Shown in pieces: positions 3,742-14,505 of a DNA stretch of 21,000 nucleotides. Below the pieces are notes generated by a model. That model was not told where the DNA came from. It saw only the letters and a list, made by a program, of their open reading frames with translations, and did not search any database. The stretch lies in IMG/VR virus record IMGVR_UViG_3300046559_001074, positions 1 to 21,000 of that record. One strand, 5' to 3'. Both the position numbers and the translations under genes were made by a program. The DNA is from a virus. Position 1 is the stretch's first letter. Each line of letters opens with the position of its first letter.

Positions 3742-4959
3742 TCATTTGAGAAGTCTCTCGAAGACGGCTGCGGTGGCGTCGATTGAGCCTCCGGTGCGCG
3801 CCTGGTTTTTGAGAGCGTCATCAATGCTTCTGCGGGCCGCTGAGCCGATTGGTCTTGCGCTTCCGGGAGCTAATGTGCGTCCTTTGTCATGCATGACCGG
3901 TCTAGGTTTATTAGCCGCCATGCGTCGATATTCGCTGGCGTCCCGAAGGACGTGCAGCATTCGCGGATCAAAGACGGTACCGATTTCGTGTTCGGTGAAG
4001 CCGTAAACCTCCAGGCCTACTTTCCTCATCGCTGAAAATTCGTTGTTCAACGATGGGATGTCTGTGATTCCGATGCGTCTCTGGAACTCCTTTTTTCCCC
4101 ATTCGGCGTAGGCCGCTTCTTGCTGGGCGGCGGCTTGGGTCTGTGCCTGATACTGGGCCTGGGCCTCGGCCTGCTCGCGCTGCATTTCCTGGGCGATCGA
4201 GGTCATGCGGCCGCGGACGTGCTGGTAGACCTTCTCCTTGTCGTGGGCGGCCTTCGGATCGGCGGAGTATTCGGCCTCCCAGTTGAGTTCCTTGGGATAG
4301 AGGTCGGCCATGACCCGGCCGATATATTCGAGCCGCTGCTGGTAGGTCTGGCGGGCCTGGCCGATCTCCTGGGCGACTGCCGCGCTCTGCTGCTCGAAGG
4401 TTCTGGCGTATTCCTCGACCTGGCGGGCGCGCTGGTTGATGGCTTCCTGCTCGGCGTAACCCTTGACGACATCCTGGAGGGAGACCTGTTTGGTTTCGCC
4501 GCCGACGTCGATTTCGATCTTCTCGACGGGCTTGCCGTCGTGGGTTAGCGCCCAGCGCGCGGCGTCGGGGTCTTCGGCTTCGTCATCTTTGGCATCGTTA
4601 TCCTTGGCGTCGCCTTCATCGGGCTTTTTGCCATCGCCTTTGGCTTCGGCATCGCCCCCGGACTTTTGGTTCCGGGGGTCCCCGGCGGCGTCGAGCTCCT
4701 CGGCGTCCCCTTCCTCACCCCTGCCGTCTGCGACTCTTCTCTCGATTGCCTTCAGACGCTCGTCGTCCCCGGCGTCGCGGGTGTCTCCCTTCTCATCGCC
4801 TTCGAGGGAGCGGGGTTCGAACAGCGGCTCGGGACGCTGGGAGACGCTTGAGAAGCGGCCGCTCTCGTCGCGGGGGCGGTCTGATCCCCGGATCGAGTCC
4901 GGGGAGGGGGCGATTTCGTTGCGGAAGGCGTCCGCTGCGCCATCAATGCCGTCGGCCAT
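3742..4959 (-). CDS. Capsid scaffolding protein (putative)
   Basis: 405 aa, very acidic and hydrophilic. Residues 1 to about 135 are low complexity (runs of Asp, Glu, Gly, Lys and Ala), about 145-170 are more ordered (KIEIDVGGETKQVSLQDVVKGY), and about 175-290 are Gln/Ala/Glu-rich and predicted coiled coil. The C-terminal part has a basic segment with RRSIDDALKNQART before a short helical end. Placed between portal and major capsid genes, with this composition, it fits a scaffold that fills the procapsid and then leaves. The start ATG overlaps the upstream stop by one base (TGATG). No protease motif is visible. Function rests on gene order and composition. Confidence 0.75.
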   Translation of the reverse strand: MADGIDGAADAFRNEIAPSPDSIRGSDRPRDESGRFSSVSQRPEPLFEPRSLEGDEKGDTRDAGDDERLKAIERRVADGRGEEGDAEELDAAGDPRNQKSGGDAEAKGDGKKPDEGDAKDNDAKDDEAEDPDAARWALTHDGKPVEKIEIDVGGETKQVSLQDVVKGYAEQEAINQRARQVEEYARTFEQQSAAVAQEIGQARQTYQQRLEYIGRVMADLYPKELNWEAEYSADPKAAHDKEKVYQHVRGRMTSIAQEMQREQAEAQAQYQAQTQAAAQQEAAYAEWGKKEFQRRIGITDIPSLNNEFSAMRKVGLEVYGFTEHEIGTVFDPRMLHVLRDASEYRRMAANKPRPVMHDKGRTLAPGSARPIGSAARRSIDDALKNQARTGGSIDATAAVFERLLK

Positions 4960-8164: not shown

Positions 8165-8200
8165 CTGAACTTTTGTTCCATGTCATGTACAAATGTTCAG
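8165..8200 (+). promoter_or_regulatory. 36-bp dyad (site 1) in the divergent dpdA upstream region
   Basis: CTGAACTTTTGT (8165-8176) and ACAAATGTTCAG (8189-8200) are inverted with 11 of 12 positions matching, separated by a 12-nt spacer that itself contains CATG-T-CATG. A second copy with the same arms but a different spacer lies at 12233-12268 in the opposite orientation. It sits 31 nt upstream of the Gly/Pro-repeat gene start and 83 nt upstream of dpdA, where an operator controlling both directions would be expected. A recombination site is another possibility. Confidence 0.7.
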
Positions 8201-8282
8201 AGCTTCTCGTTTAGCGCCAACTTGCCATGTTAGCAAGATTGTCTCAGAAACTATTCCGCATGTCCCACGACGCCGTCTTCTG

Positions 8283-9020
8283 ATGATTTTTTATATCGGC
8301 CTGCACAAGCCCTGGCATGGCGGCGTGGTCGAGCGCGCCTTCATGAGCATCAACGTGCTTCGGCGGCGGCGGAAGCCGGTGTCGTGTCCGATTATCGTCG
8401 ACAGCGGGGCATTCACGGAGCTGGCCCAATACGGCCGCTATCGCCATTCGCCGGCGGCTTATGCCGCCGATCTGCGCCGTCTTGCTTCCGTGGCGTCGAT
8501 ACAGGCGGCGGTCGCCCAGGATTACATGTGCGAGCCGTTCATGCTGGCCAAGACCGGCTTGACCATCGCCGATCATCAGCGGCTGACCATTGAGCGTTAT
8601 GACGCGCTTTTTGCCGAAGATCTGCCCTTCCCTATCCTACCCGTCTTGCAGGGGTACGATCCGGCCGATTACGTGCGGCACCTTGAGGCCTATGGCGACC
8701 GTCTGAAACCGGGCCAGTGGGTGGGGGTCGGCTCGGTGTGCAAGCGCAACGGGCGTCCTGCCCAGATCCTCGCGGTGCTGGAGGCGATCGTCCGTCAGCG
8801 TCCCGATCTTCGCCTGCATGGGTTTGGGGTCAAGAAGACCTCGCTCGAGCATCCGGGGGTGCGGGCGCTTCTTCACTCAGCCGATTCGATGGCGTGGTCC
8901 TACGCGGCTCGCCGCGAAGGCAGAAACCCTAACGCGGCTTCCGAGGCCCTGGCCTACAGCGCGGCAATCGCCAACATCCTCGGCACAGGCCGCCAGTTCT
9001 GGCAACCGAGCCTGCTATGA
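8283..9020 (+). CDS. dpdA: DpdA-family 7-deazaguanine DNA transglycosylase
   Basis: 245 aa from the ATG at 8283. The frame is open to an ATG at 8193, but that lies in the dyad and family members begin close to MIFYIGLHKP. DpdA enzymes are relatives of tRNA-guanine transglycosylase that exchange guanine in DNA for a 7-deazaguanine such as preQ0. Visible family segments are DSGAF (40-44), AQDYMCEP (78-85), LPVLQGYDPADYV (119-131), VGVGSVCKRNG (147-157), HGFGVKKTSL (179-188) and a HSADSMAWSY segment with Asp201. These resemble the phage-type DpdA best. The stop overlaps the terL start as ATGA. No clear Shine-Dalgarno sequence precedes 8283. No folE, queC, queD or queE genes are in the window. 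Confidence 0.85.
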   Translation: MIFYIGLHKPWHGGVVERAFMSINVLRRRRKPVSCPIIVDSGAFTELAQYGRYRHSPAAYAADLRRLASVASIQAAVAQDYMCEPFMLAKTGLTIADHQRLTIERYDALFAEDLPFPILPVLQGYDPADYVRHLEAYGDRLKPGQWVGVGSVCKRNGRPAQILAVLEAIVRQRPDLRLHGFGVKKTSLEHPGVRALLHSADSMAWSYAARREGRNPNAASEALAYSAAIANILGTGRQFWQPSLL

Positions 9021-10336
9021 CCGACGCTGCCGCAGCCGAAGGCCCCGACCGGGCGACCCTCATCCCTTATCTGCCCCGGAAGCATTTCCGGGCGCTGCAT
9101 GCCTCCGAGAAGCGGTGGATGTTCGTGTGCGCTCATCGCAGAGCCGGGAAAACTGTTGCTTTGGCCAATCATCTGATCCGGGCGGCCTCGCAGAATGGCC
9201 GCAAGTGGCCGCCGCCGCGGTACGCCTATGTCGGGCCAAGTTTCGATCAGGCGAAGGATTTGGTTTGGTCCTACCTCAAGCAGTACACCGAGAACGTCTC
9301 CGGCACCCGCTACCTCGAGGGGGAACTGGCCTGTCTTCTGCCCAACGGGGCGATTATCAAGCTCTATGGCGGGGCGGCGGCCTACGAGCGCATGCGAGGC
9401 ATGTATTTCGACGGCATCGTGCTCGACGAATATCCGCTACTGAACCCCGCCGTGTTTGGAACGGTGGTGCGGCCCTGTCTCGCCGACTATCACGGCTTTG
9501 CCCTGGTGTCGGGGACCTCGAACGGCGACGATCATTTCAACCATTTGCGGCTCAGGACCGAGAGCGATCCCCGCTGGGACCAGTTCATCATCCCCTTATC
9601 CTCGACTGGGGAAGAGGCTTTGAGCAAAGAAGAGGCGATCGAGCTCGCCCAGGACATGACGCCGGAGGAGTACTCCCGGGAACTCGAATGTTCGTTCGAC
9701 GCGCCGGTCGAGGGGGCCTATTACGCCGAGGCTCTTAACAAGCTCGCTGCCCAGGGCCGGATCTGCGCGGTCCCCCCTGACCTTTCTCAGCCCGTCATCA
9801 CCGCCTGGGACTTAGGGATTCACGATTATTGCTGCATCTGGTTCTATCAGATTGCCGGGCGAGAGATTCATTTCATCGACTACATCCAGGACAATGGGAA
9901 GGGGTTGGACCACTACGCCCGCGAGCTGAGGAACCGGGCGCACAAGGGCGGCTATCTCTATAAAGCGCATTGCCTGCCCCACGACGTCGAGGCGCGGGAG
10001 ATCTCGACTGGGCAATCTCGACGAGCCTTTCTTGAGAACGAGCTTGACGAGCCGGTGATCACTGCGCCGTTCTCGAACCCCGAGGACGGGATCGCCGCAG
10101 CCAGGAACCTGATGGGGCTCTCGTACTTCGATCAGGTGAAGTGCCGACAGGGGTTACAGATGCTGCGCGGCTACCATAAGTCGAAGATGGGCAAGCCGGT
10201 GCATGGGCCCGGTCCTCACTCCCATGGCGCGGATGCGTTTCGATGCTTCGCCTGCGCCTTCCACCTGGTGGGGGGCCTAAGGGCCCGCACCCTCGGGCAG
10301 GGGCCGCTGAGAAGGCGGATCAGGGGACTGGTTTAG
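9017..10336 (+). CDS. terL: Terminase large subunit (ATPase and nuclease)
   Basis: 439 aa. The ATPase half has Walker A AHRRAGKT at 39-46, Walker B IVLDEYP at 134-140 with the catalytic acid in DE, and a coupling motif SGTSNG at 165-170. The RNase H-like nuclease half has AWDLGIHD (Asp265, Asp270), LPHDVEAREIS (Asp323) and HGADAFRC (Asp406). All expected acidic residues are present, so it should be active. It pumps phage DNA through the portal and cuts the concatemer. Its start overlaps the dpdA stop by 4 nt, tying the modification enzyme to packaging in translation. Its 3' end overlaps the convergent HTH gene by 17 nt. A small subunit is not directly upstream; candidates lie at 10668-11102 and 14899-15180. 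Confidence 0.95.
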   Translation: MTDAAAAEGPDRATLIPYLPRKHFRALHASEKRWMFVCAHRRAGKTVALANHLIRAASQNGRKWPPPRYAYVGPSFDQAKDLVWSYLKQYTENVSGTRYLEGELACLLPNGAIIKLYGGAAAYERMRGMYFDGIVLDEYPLLNPAVFGTVVRPCLADYHGFALVSGTSNGDDHFNHLRLRTESDPRWDQFIIPLSSTGEEALSKEEAIELAQDMTPEEYSRELECSFDAPVEGAYYAEALNKLAAQGRICAVPPDLSQPVITAWDLGIHDYCCIWFYQIAGREIHFIDYIQDNGKGLDHYARELRNRAHKGGYLYKAHCLPHDVEAREISTGQSRRAFLENELDEPVITAPFSNPEDGIAAARNLMGLSYFDQVKCRQGLQMLRGYHKSKMGKPVHGPGPHSHGADAFRCFACAFHLVGGLRARTLGQGPLRRRIRGLV

Positions 10337-10658
10337 AGCGGCTCTCCAGCTCCATCGCCAGCCACCCGAGATCCATCCACAATCTCTCGGCGACTGCCGT
10401 GAAGGCGGCCGACGCCTTGAGCCGCTCGATCTCGGCGTTCCTTTGCCTGAGTTCGGCATGCATGCGCCCGAGCTCCAGGGCCTCGACATGGCGACGGACT
10501 AAGAGGCAAACGCGCGTCGGTGAGAGGTCGAATTTCTCGGCCAGCGCCTTCCTGGTTATCTTGCCGCCGACCTCATCGTGAAAGGCCAGCATTGCCTCTT
10601 CGCGCAGCCGCTCCTGGTCCCAGTGCTCGCGCCATCCCTCCTCGCCCAAAAGAATCAC
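10320..10658 (-). CDS. Small helix-turn-helix protein, convergent with terL
   Basis: 112 aa from a GTG start, with GAGG 7 nt before it. Residues about 35-58 (ITRKALAEKFDLSPTRVCLLVRRH) look like a helix-turn-helix, followed by a charged helix likely to be coiled coil (ALELGRMHAELRQRNAEIERL). The final 17 nt overlap the end of terL on the other strand. It is the last gene of a minus-strand operon and starts 9 nt after the terminase-like gene. It could be a DNA-recognition partner in packaging or a regulator; the sequence does not decide. Confidence 0.7.
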   Translation of the reverse strand: MILLGEEGWREHWDQERLREEAMLAFHDEVGGKITRKALAEKFDLSPTRVCLLVRRHVEALELGRMHAELRQRNAEIERLKASAAFTAVAERLWMDLGWLAMELESRSKPVP

Positions 10659-10667
10659 GTCGGGGCC

Positions 10668-11102
10668 TCAACCGGCTTCCGGCCCATCCCCAGGGACCTC
10701 CAGCTCCTCCCGCGGCTCGAGCCACCGTAGTGTGATCGTCCTCGCGCCCCCCTTGTCCTTCAACTCCAAGGTCGCCGATCCGCTCGCCTCATGACCGAAG
10801 CCACGCCTTCTTGCCGCCCCGGTGCGCAGGAACTCCTTGGCCGCATAGAAGCGGTTCTGGAAACTCATCTCGTCCCGCAGACCTTCGAACAAGACCCCGA
10901 CCGCCTCGTCCACCGCCCCCTCGAACACCTCGTCGATCGCCCCGCACAATCGCTCGCTCTTCGCCACGAACTTCCTAAGCCTCGAGGACTTCACCCCAAG
11001 CTTCTTCGCCACCCTGCCCACATTGCCGTCATGCTCGGCCAGCAGTTCCTCGATCCGATCCTCGTCAAGAGGGGCTTCGAATAGGATGACCTCAGCCGTC
11101 AT
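10668..11102 (-). CDS. Small-terminase-like HTH protein (copy 1)
   Basis: 144 aa. Residues about 14-45 (RIEELLAEHDGNVGRVAKKL then GVKSSRLRKFV) form a helix-turn-helix of the type in which a short helix, a Gly/Asn turn and an AAKxLGV recognition region occur. A helical middle follows (DEVFEGAVDEAVGVLFEGLR) and then a SFQNRFYAAKEFLRTGAARRRGFG segment that resembles small terminase subunits. The C-terminus is acidic with a beta-like segment (ARTITLRWLEP). Its position next to terL, though on the other strand, supports a role in recognising phage DNA for packaging. The 93-aa protein at 14899-15180 shares the same layout. The assignment rests on pattern, not on a search. Confidence 0.6.
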   Translation of the reverse strand: MTAEVILFEAPLDEDRIEELLAEHDGNVGRVAKKLGVKSSRLRKFVAKSERLCGAIDEVFEGAVDEAVGVLFEGLRDEMSFQNRFYAAKEFLRTGAARRRGFGHEASGSATLELKDKGGARTITLRWLEPREELEVPGDGPEAG

Positions 11103-11117
11103 TTCCGCTATGCTCGC

Positions 11118-11537
11118 CTAAGCGGGGGCCGAGCCGGCCAGCTCGCGCGCCGGGCTTCCTTCGTCGGTTCCCCCGGCCGCCCCCGCAGCCCCAACACCTG
11201 CCTCCAACGCTCCACGCATCACCCGATCCAAAATCGCCATGCTCAACTGCCCAACTCCCCCAGCCAGCGCATACTGAGCAAAATCCTCCGAAACCCACCC
11301 CGTCCGCACAACCCCGTCATCCCCAACAACAATAACCCCTAACCCCGTCACTCCCCCACCAGAAACCTCCTCCCGAACCTGCTTAAGCAAATTCTCCAAC
11401 CCCACACGATGCTCAGGTATCCGAAATCGTAGCGGCCCAGCCTCAAGCCCCCCAACCTTCTCCTCCAACCGCTTCAACCGCTCGTCAAAAGTCCCCTGCG
11501 CACGCCGAGCCCAGTCGCGAAACTCACTCTCCTGCAT
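11118..11537 (-). CDS. Unknown protein with N-terminal coiled coil
   Basis: 139 aa from the ATG at 11537, which overlaps the previous stop as TGATG and has AAGGGG 8 nt upstream; an earlier in-frame start at 11570 lies inside the neighbour and is less likely. The N-terminus is charged helix (MQESEFRDWARRAQGTFDER, then LKRLEEKVGGLEA). The middle has LLKQVREEV and a small beta-like part (GLGVIVVGDDGVVRTGWV), followed by an Ala/Gly-rich C-terminus. Its DNA is unusually poor in G on the plus strand. I do not recognise a family. It lies between two DNA-binding-type genes of the same operon. Confidence 0.6.
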   Translation of the reverse strand: MQESEFRDWARRAQGTFDERLKRLEEKVGGLEAGPLRFRIPEHRVGLENLLKQVREEVSGGGVTGLGVIVVGDDGVVRTGWVSEDFAQYALAGGVGQLSMAILDRVMRGALEAGVGAAGAAGGTDEGSPARELAGSAPA

Positions 11538-11878
11538 CAAACCAACCCCTTCGCCTTCCGACGCTCCCACGTCTTCCTGCTAACCCCATCAACATCCCAA
11601 GGACGATCCCCAGCAATCCTCGGCCGACCCCGCCCACGCGGCCCCGCCTTAACCTCAACCTTGCTTACCGCAGCCCGCGCACGCTCCAACCGTACCGCAG
11701 GCGGGGAAGCCGAAGTCTCCTCAACCGTCGCAAACCGCCGAGCCCAATTCGAATCCCCAAGCCCCTGCTGATCCAGAAGCCGACGACCCCGATCAGCCCC
11801 GTGCCCCTTAAAATTCCCAATAACCATGTCGCAAATAATCCCCCTAGCGGAGACTTCTTGCGTCATTTTATGCGTCAT
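11537..11878 (-). CDS. Small basic protein with AT-hook-like motif
   Basis: 113 aa from the ATG at 11878, which has a strong GGAGGGG 5 nt before it; an upstream ATG at 11902 would lie outside the transcript predicted from the nearby -10 element. The N-terminal part contains ARGIICDMVIGNFKGHGADRG. The C-terminal part carries GPRGRGRPRIAGD, like an AT-hook minor-groove binder, then a PWDVDGVSRKTWERRKAKG tail that resembles helix-turn-helix regions of small phage and integron proteins. DNA binding is therefore likely, but its target is unknown. It is the first gene of the 11878-to-10320 minus-strand operon. Confidence 0.65.
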   Translation of the reverse strand: MTHKMTQEVSARGIICDMVIGNFKGHGADRGRRLLDQQGLGDSNWARRFATVEETSASPPAVRLERARAAVSKVEVKAGPRGRGRPRIAGDRPWDVDGVSRKTWERRKAKGLV

Positions 11879-11899
11879 TCGAGCCCCTCCAGCAAGCCT

Positions 11900-11935
11900 C
11901 ATATGTATTATACGCTGGCTTATGTGAATTATGGG
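11900..11935 (-). promoter_or_regulatory. Candidate promoter for the 11878-10320 operon
   Basis: A perfect TATAAT on the minus strand occupies 11907-11912, about 20-30 nt before the Shine-Dalgarno sequence and ATG at 11878. No good -35 match is present at the normal distance (CCCATA at 17 nt), so an activator or a phage-specific factor may be needed. The expected start of transcription near 11900 excludes the ATG at 11902. Confidence 0.5.
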
Positions 11936-12224
11936 AGGGGGTTAAGAGCGGGATGGGGCCCCCGGCGCTGGTTCCGGTCGAGGCCGGGGGGGTGGGGGGC
12001 CAAAACGCTTCTGGCTAGGGAACGACGGGCGGTCCAGCCGCCCGCCAGGACACACACGCTATCCACATGCAGGGCGACTGGACGCAGTCAGCATCAACGA
12101 TATCAACGACTTAGCGCACGATACACTGTGATGTTCAATCACGAGCAGTGCTCTAGAGTAGCCATTGGCCAGCCTCGGCGCGAGGTTTAAATGGGCCCGG
12201 AATGTTTGGGGCGAGGGCCGTTTT

Positions 12225-12264
12225 GAGACGTCCTGCACATTTGTGAGACGGGCTGCACAAAAGT
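12225..12264. repeat. Two adjacent 20-bp direct repeats
   Basis: GAGACG-n2-CTGCACA occurs at 12225-12239 and again at 12245-12259, a period of exactly 20 bp, about two turns of the helix. The repeats overlap the 36-bp dyad. Two head-to-tail protein sites on one face of the helix are a reasonable reading. Confidence 0.65.
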
Positions 12265-12268
12265 TCAG
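12233..12268 (-). promoter_or_regulatory. 36-bp dyad (site 2), copy of the site near dpdA
   Basis: On the minus strand it reads CTGAACTTTTGT, a 12-nt spacer (GCAGCCCGTCTC), then ACAAATGTGCAG. The left arm is identical to that of the site at 8165-8200, the right arm differs at one position, and the spacer is unrelated. Conservation of arms but not spacer points to a protein-binding site rather than a copied block of DNA. It lies just downstream of the gene ending at 12287 and 355 bp before the operon starting at 11878. Confidence 0.7.
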
Positions 12269-12286
12269 GCGGGATTAATATGGCCC

Positions 12287-12520: not shown

Positions 12521-12731
12521 GAGCGGCTCCCTTGGGCTCTTGGGATGCGGTGATGGACTTCGTGGCCTCCGTGAGGGCGGACGCGGCTGTGCGCCAGCGC
12601 TGGCCTTCCTCGGACGATGCGGCGCCGGCAGCCTTGCGCTGGCATACGCGCTTGAGAGACTCGAGCAGCGCCTCGGGCTCGTTGAGATCAATGAGGAGGC
12701 GGGTATGTTCCTGCAATTCATCCATCCGCAT
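12450..12731 (-). CDS. Unknown small acidic helical protein
   Basis: 93 aa from the ATG at 12731 (or 91 aa from the ATG at 12725). It starts MRMDELQEHTRLLIDLNEPE and is helical to about residue 62 (ALLESLKRVCQRKA, RWRTAASALTEATKSI). The last 30 residues are Pro/Glu-rich and disordered, and this tail is the part that overlaps the next gene in another frame. No family recognised. It is the first gene of a short minus-strand pair and is divergent from the plus-strand accessory genes. Confidence 0.6.
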   Translation of the reverse strand: MRMDELQEHTRLLIDLNEPEALLESLKRVCQRKAAGAASSEEGQRWRTAASALTEATKSITASQEPKGAAHEPDKPSPEPGPVPTEGEASSTD

Positions 12732-14050: not shown

Positions 14051-14269
14051 ATGACCGATATGAGAGACGAGACCCTCGCAGTCTTCAAGGACCGCATAAG
14101 CCAGCTCCAAACGGAAGCCGGTCTCGCCCTCGCTCACGCAACGGCTGGCGATATCGACGGCGTCCACGGCCATCTCGGCGAAGTGCACATGCAGCTCTCA
14201 GCCGTCATGCATATCCTCTGGCACTATCGAACCGAGCTGACGGTCAAGCCGCAGGCGCCCGCCAAATGA
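14051..14269 (+). CDS. 72-aa helical protein, unknown function
   Basis: 72 aa from the ATG at 14051, with GGAGAG 7 nt upstream. It is mostly helical: MRDETLAVFKDRISQLQTEA, then LAHATAGDIDGVHGHLGEVH and LSAVMHILWHYRTEL, with several His residues. The next gene starts in its stop codon as ATGA. It may form a complex with that HTH protein, since the two are translationally coupled, but nothing more can be said. Confidence 0.65.
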   Translation: MTDMRDETLAVFKDRISQLQTEAGLALAHATAGDIDGVHGHLGEVHMQLSAVMHILWHYRTELTVKPQAPAK

Positions 14270-14505
14270 CCGCAGCCGAATTGCGACAAGCCCGCAACCG
14301 CCTCGGCGTCTCAGGAGCTGAGTTCGCCCGCGCCTTCGATGTCTCAGAGCGAACCTTGCGCTCATGGGAGGGCGCAATCCATAACAAGCGCCTGATCCCC
14401 GTCCCGCGCGCCGTCGCAATCCTGACCAAGCTCGCGCTCAAAAACCCATCCATCCGGCGCGAGCTCGGCCTCGCCAAAGCCAAAGCGCCAGCAGCCGATG
14501 GCTAA
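14266..14505 (+). CDS. XRE-type helix-turn-helix protein
   Basis: 79 aa. Residues 4-38 (ELRQARNRLGVSGAEFARAF then DVSERTLRSWE) form a standard XRE/Cro-type helix-turn-helix of the kind found in antitoxin-like and small phage regulators. The second half has a further helix (AVAILTKLALKNPSIRREL). Start and stop are both overlapped: ATGA with the 72-aa gene and 8 nt with the zinc-ribbon gene. It probably binds DNA in or near this accessory block, and its partner could be the 72-aa protein. Confidence 0.8.
   Translation: MTAAELRQARNRLGVSGAEFARAFDVSERTLRSWEGAIHNKRLIPVPRAVAILTKLALKNPSIRRELGLAKAKAPAADG

Follow-up and report, generated by a model that had tools for sequence, protein, structure and literature searches.

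Two matching dyads that bracket a 4.1-kb segment of a soil phage in opposite orientation may be two copies of one operator-type site for a phage DNA-binding protein, which would co-regulate the late operon and the dpdA-terL unit and whose most likely candidate is the product of g10320; from sequence comparison, we give this reading a roughly even chance. Three observations favour it: both sites are found in intergenic control DNA, their arms but not their spacers are alike, and the nearest relative, L003, keeps site 2. The window, here meaning the whole 21-kb stretch of DNA that was analysed, is a virus record whose genes mark a tailed phage of podovirus-like type (SU10-type portal, major head and scaffold proteins, TerL, DpdA, endolysin); by TerL, Ochrobactrum phage vB_OspP_OH comes closest among named phages (53%). 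A tyrosine integrase is encoded in three relatives, so the clade is probably temperate. A match to PtaRNA1 (RF01811) was also recorded at 2122-2196 on the minus strand, below the gathering score (35 versus 47 bits, E 0.001).

Sequence, geometry and distribution of the dyads

Site 1 (8165..8200, plus strand) is the 12-12-12 dyad CTGAACTTTTGT-TCCATGTCATGT-ACAAATGTTCAG, and site 2 (12233..12268, minus strand), as read on the minus strand, is CTGAACTTTTGT-GCAGCCCGTCTC-ACAAATGTGCAG. The first-pass annotation had placed two such dyads with 12-nt spacers at these positions, and both the coordinates and the likeness of the arms were confirmed: the arms are identical at 23 of 24 positions and the spacers at 1 of 12, and arm-to-arm complementarity inside each site amounts to 11/12 and 10/12. 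Its observation that the window holds no further copy of the arms also stands, as a scan that included a single arm with one mismatch found no third copy in the 21 kb. With a pattern derived from the sites themselves, matches at three or fewer mismatches occurred in 0 of 100 shuffled sequences. When all 12-gap-12 words of the window were compared without a preset pattern, the top reverse-complement pair was sites 1 and 2 alone (23/24), and the pair at 22/24 was a one-base shift of the same two sites. The match between the sites is not due to chance.

The middle base of the arms is asymmetric in every copy, with TTTTGT in one arm and ATTTGT in the other, so the dyad has a direction. This direction matches that of the downstream operon at both sites, dpdA-terL at site 1 and the late operon at site 2, and this common direction, together with like arms, unlike spacers and a position in control DNA, makes an operator-type site, read by a protein at the arms, the simplest reading. 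Each arm can also be read as an imperfect 14-bp palindrome, TGNAC-N4-GTNCA, with centres 20 bp apart, and the centres of the 12-bp arms are 24 bp apart; a dimeric or tetrameric HTH protein would grip the two 12-bp arms. The 16-bp unit TGTKCAGNNCGTCTC extends site 1 only weakly and is not counted as part of it.

The distribution of the dyad is narrow. L003 (TerL 98%) retains site 2 at 10366-10401 with one pattern mismatch and 22 of 24 arm bases unchanged, and 11 of the 12 spacer bases are kept as well, a difference too small to rank the arms above the spacer. L004 (TerL 94%) is without either dyad, site 1 being absent at the aligned place, and no dyad was found in the contig of L005 (TerL 89%), which ends short of the site-2 region. 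The remaining fetched relatives contained no dyad within 5 mismatches, the one exception being a weak match at 5 mismatches in the distant contig L144, which bears dpdA. Exact and loose scans of viral contigs found the dyad in L003 only, besides unrelated AT-rich contigs, mostly with other spacers. The first-pass annotation had stated that many copies of the arms in unrelated genomes, or a lack of conservation in close relatives, would speak against a specific site. The arms are not scattered widely, for bacterial genome contigs gave two stray matches only, which indicates that the dyad is not a common bacterial operator; conservation was found for one half of the pair, site 2 being kept in L003 and site 1 being absent in all relatives. 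BLAST searches matched nothing in plasmids with the site-2 stretch and gave only weak partial matches in phages with the site-1 stretch (E 0.5 or more), no Rfam family matched at either site, and the dyads showed no sign of transposon-end character. Among 34 pieces of relatives, no analogous dyad pair of other sequence was convincing. Site 1 is known from one genome only, and the dyad is, as judged from these scans, private to one narrow lineage.

The site-1 leader and the bracketed segment

Site 1 is intergenic, 30 bp upstream of g7619 (minus strand) and 82 bp upstream of dpdA (plus strand). The terL leader also contains an imperfect palindrome, AACTTGC-N7-GCAAGATT (8219..8240, plus strand), and a GTCTCA box (8241..8246, plus strand) that is present in L003 too; the terL leader of L004 contains two GTCTCA copies, 22 bp apart. 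The palindrome AACTTGC-N7-GCAAG is kept in L003, L004 and L005 and is similar in L007, while site 1 is not kept there. L003 and L005 carry different, unrelated hairpins where the window has site 1, that of L003 being a GC hairpin. These hairpins, and the folding of both dyads themselves, which is better than that of shuffles (z -4.7 and -3.7, DNA parameters), would fit the idea that the sites are a small selfish or structural hairpin acting as RNA or cruciform, for instance a leader hairpin by the ribosome-binding site of g7619. We regard this as rather improbable, since site 2 does not lie in a leader so near a start codon, neither hairpin is followed by a T-run, and the arm sequence is kept between the sites beyond what mere pairing would need. 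An intrinsic terminator was likewise considered and rejected, with no terminator call at either site and AT-rich stems.

The segment between the dyads contains dpdA (8283..9020, plus strand; Pfam DpdA, 145 bits), terL (9017..10336, plus strand; inverted relative to the late operon), g10320, and a terS-like gene (10668..11102, minus strand) with a weak HTH_8 match. DpdA is known for the insertion of preQ0 into DNA, a type of modification that gives protection from restriction (PMC6884629); the comparisons revealed no link between the dyad and this activity. The stop codon of dpdA overlaps the present start of terL, and a 7-codon remnant of the old terL start, MSHDAVF followed by a stop (8260..8283, plus strand), has a TGA that overlaps the ATG of dpdA and is aligned to the terL start of L003, MSDISTDD.... 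By this sequence evidence, dpdA entered at the terL start. The gene is missing in L003, L004 and L005; in L005 the place that dpdA occupies in the window, immediately ahead of terL, is taken by an HNH_3/AP2-type endonuclease gene (9441-9980), and in L020 dpdA lies downstream, after terL. The dpdA-terL-terS module of the first-pass annotation is thus not a unit. The entry of dpdA in the window and of the HNH gene in L005 at the same point resembles the insertion of morons or homing endonucleases at the terminase, but the dyads show no sign of being insert ends, as the conserved leader separates site 1 from dpdA by about 80 bp.

Close relatives (window, L003-L078) differ in where terL lies, and on which strand, with respect to terS and portal, and three settings were found in the clade: terS-terL-portal with all three genes co-oriented, the setting of phage OH; terS-portal-terL; and an inverted terL that separates terS from portal, the setting of the window, L003-L007, L009, L010, L012, L013, L015 and others. 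The order of terS and portal is constant, so terL alone flips.

The first-pass annotation had offered two interpretations of the pair, a shared operator or promoter element and a pair of recombination sites that would invert or exchange the 4.1-kb segment. The latter draws on the opposite orientation of two matching sites, in which they resemble invertible segments of the Gin/gix and Hin/hix type, on the inversion of terL in part of the clade, and on the tyrosine integrase encoded by relatives. However, L003 and L004 have the bracketed genes in the order and orientation of the window without site 1, both orientations of the bracketed DNA were not seen in the relatives, and the inversion concerns only terL, with respect to terS and portal. 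No member of the tyrosine or serine recombinase families (PF00589, PF00239) was found in the 21-kb window, which is a genome fragment, and in L004 about 15 kb separate the integrase from the region. The systems of the Gin and Hin type also differ in site geometry and in showing orientation variation linked to their sites. Known tyrosine recombinase core sites are 6-8 bp long, and the 12-bp spacer of the dyads is longer. The 7-codon remnant, the insertion of dpdA or HNH genes and the flips of terL account for the arrangement, with no need for recombination at the dyads. Inversion or exchange at the dyads is already largely refuted by L003, and we consider it extremely improbable; the bracketed stretch is most likely neither an invertible nor a mobile unit. 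Of the two interpretations it is the shared operator or promoter element that is favoured, by the intergenic control DNA and by the retention of site 2 in L003.

The control region of the late operon

Site 2 lies at the right end of a conserved noncoding control region of 384 bp (11903..12286) upstream of the late operon, whose first gene is g11537 (11537..11827, minus strand; its start, formerly set at 11902, was corrected against L003). This region contains a G-rich element (11955-12011), an IHF-like sequence, TATCAACGACTTA (12101-12113), and the palindrome GTGAT-N5-ATCAC (12128-12142). It is recognisable in nine more relatives by the G-rich element and by TATCAANNNNTTA, which we take to be IHF-like from the general consensus, and GTGAT-N5-ATCAC is found in most of them. 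L168 and L174, which were found via the G-rich element, were rejected as relatives; they look like chance matches, and their flanks are unalignable with those of the other relatives. A sigma-70 scan found no good promoter beside site 1 or site 2, and its one site (12682-12709, plus strand) was no better than shuffles.

Two direct repeats (12221..12259, minus strand), which read TTTTGAGACGTCCTGCACA and TTGTGAGACGGGCTGCACA on the plus strand and TGTGCANNNCGTCTCA twice on the minus strand, overlap site 2; they are 19 nt long with a period of 20 (12221-12239 and 12241-12259) and contain two TGAGAC boxes. The repeat is kept in L003, and in L004 at a period of 22 without the dyad. From this comparison, the direct repeat probably came first at site 2, and the dyad was added later. 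It might be argued that chance accounts for part of the pairing: site 2 would really be a TGAGAC direct repeat and site 1, which is unique, a chance lookalike, and the repeat without dyad in L004 would agree with this. We hold it to be very improbable, since a match at 23 of 24 positions between two equally spaced sites is not expected in 21 kb.

The boxes themselves are a feature of the clade. GTCTCA/TGAGAC is the most enriched hexamer in the late control regions clade-wide, with 39 copies seen versus 1.75 expected, and regions with it were found in the window (11903-12286), in L004 (7732-8155) and in L170, L171, L167, L012 and L173. Just upstream of g11537, TGAGAC boxes form converging arrays in 8-9 bp steps in L004, L167, L170 and L171, and in a complete 44.9-kb relative 7 of the 9 GTCTCA/TGAGAC copies lie inside 580 bp. 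The late control region of L169 has other repeated words, GTTAAGTC, in place of the TGAGAC boxes, and that of L003 has GTGTCAGTGCCACC-like repeats; from their sequence, these words would fit an exchange of recognition specificity. A parS-like palindrome, GTTTCACGTGAAAC, was observed in the late control regions of L012 (about 11485-11500) and L173 (about 4096-4111), in the latter followed by a small serine recombinase gene.

Site 2 could belong to a control region for replication, partition or packaging, in which the dyad and the direct repeats would be iteron- or TerS-type sites and site 1 a recently gained copy. This is suggested by the IHF-like site, a DnaA-box-like CTATCCACA, the G-rich element and the TGAGAC arrays upstream of g11537, and also by the parS-like sequence of L012 and L173; an IHF-like site and repeated boxes upstream of terS are likewise reminiscent of cosB/pac or iteron regions. 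The intergenic stretch of site 1, however, has none of those elements, and no replication initiator was identified. The contig ends of large relatives fall inconsistently relative to the site-2 region. One relative is circular with a 127-base overlap, and five others are without end repeats; in these contigs termini were not located at site 2, a possible difference from cosB/pac regions. On balance, a role in replication, partition or packaging appears unlikely.

Candidate binders and regulatory role

A dyad-symmetric site is thus found in intergenic control DNA at more than one transcription unit of this phage. If the two dyads are copies of one operator, site 2 would act on the late operon (terS, portal, capsid; minus strand) from the control region ahead of it, and site 1 would act in the divergent region between g7619/portal (minus strand) and dpdA-terL (plus strand). 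As terL is inverted out of the late operon, it needs a promoter of its own, and one bound protein could co-regulate both units. The closest parallel is with operators of the lambda OR/OL type, in which the same imperfect palindromes also occur at two control regions of a temperate-type phage, likewise as palindrome pairs about two helical turns apart. The dyads differ from these in that one copy lies at terL/dpdA and not in an immunity region, in that there are only two copies, and in that the binder is a candidate. To our knowledge, the arms are unrelated to any known operator.

The phage encodes several HTH proteins, among which g10320 (10320..10658, minus strand), a small protein located between terL and terS, is the most likely candidate for binding the dyad. 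In its predicted structure (mean pLDDT 89), long helices come after an HTH; matches to PDB structures cover the HTH only and are weak (Lrp/AsnC family, 42 columns, E about 0.2), and a PDB sequence search with the g10320 family gave no match. g10320 is 99% identical in L003, the keeper of site 2. At its place L004 has an XRE gene (HTH_31, 33.9 bits, cut-off 27) and L005 has nothing. In these four genomes, on which the association rests and of which the L005 contig ends before the site-2 region, site 2 is kept in L003 with g10320 and lost in L004 without it, and site 1 is absent in L003 despite g10320. Other carriers of g10320, 54-67% identical, have no such dyad. The alternative candidates are the terS-like protein, g11537, which has no Pfam match and a C-terminus conserved in relatives, and the XRE-like protein encoded at 14266-14505. 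The gene of the last, a small HTH gene on the plus strand, is conserved in relatives (92% in L004) and may be a phage regulator.

In L004, TGTGCAGGAYGTCTCA is common to the terL leader (4294) and the late region (8150), with one match overlapping the terL start codon. Within the four genomes, this pair is consistent with a joint swap of regulator and operator. It can be imagined, as a speculation of low probability, that the terL-terS junction is a slot for exchangeable DNA-binding regulators (the g10320 HTH, the XRE HTH or none), each of them bringing a pair of operators, one in the terL leader and one in the late control region. A change of regulator would then rewire terminase expression along with the operator, and the dyads would be the g10320-type pair.

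As regulatory elements of a phage, the dyads seem mostly ordinary in kind, with an unusual, lineage-specific sequence. Their surroundings are at least as interesting, namely a mobile and inverting terL, cargo (dpdA, HNH) at the terL start, and clade-wide TGAGAC arrays. If the two dyads are indeed copies of one operator, the expression of dpdA, and with it DNA modification, and that of the packaging motor would be tied to the late-gene switch in this uncultured temperate phage group.
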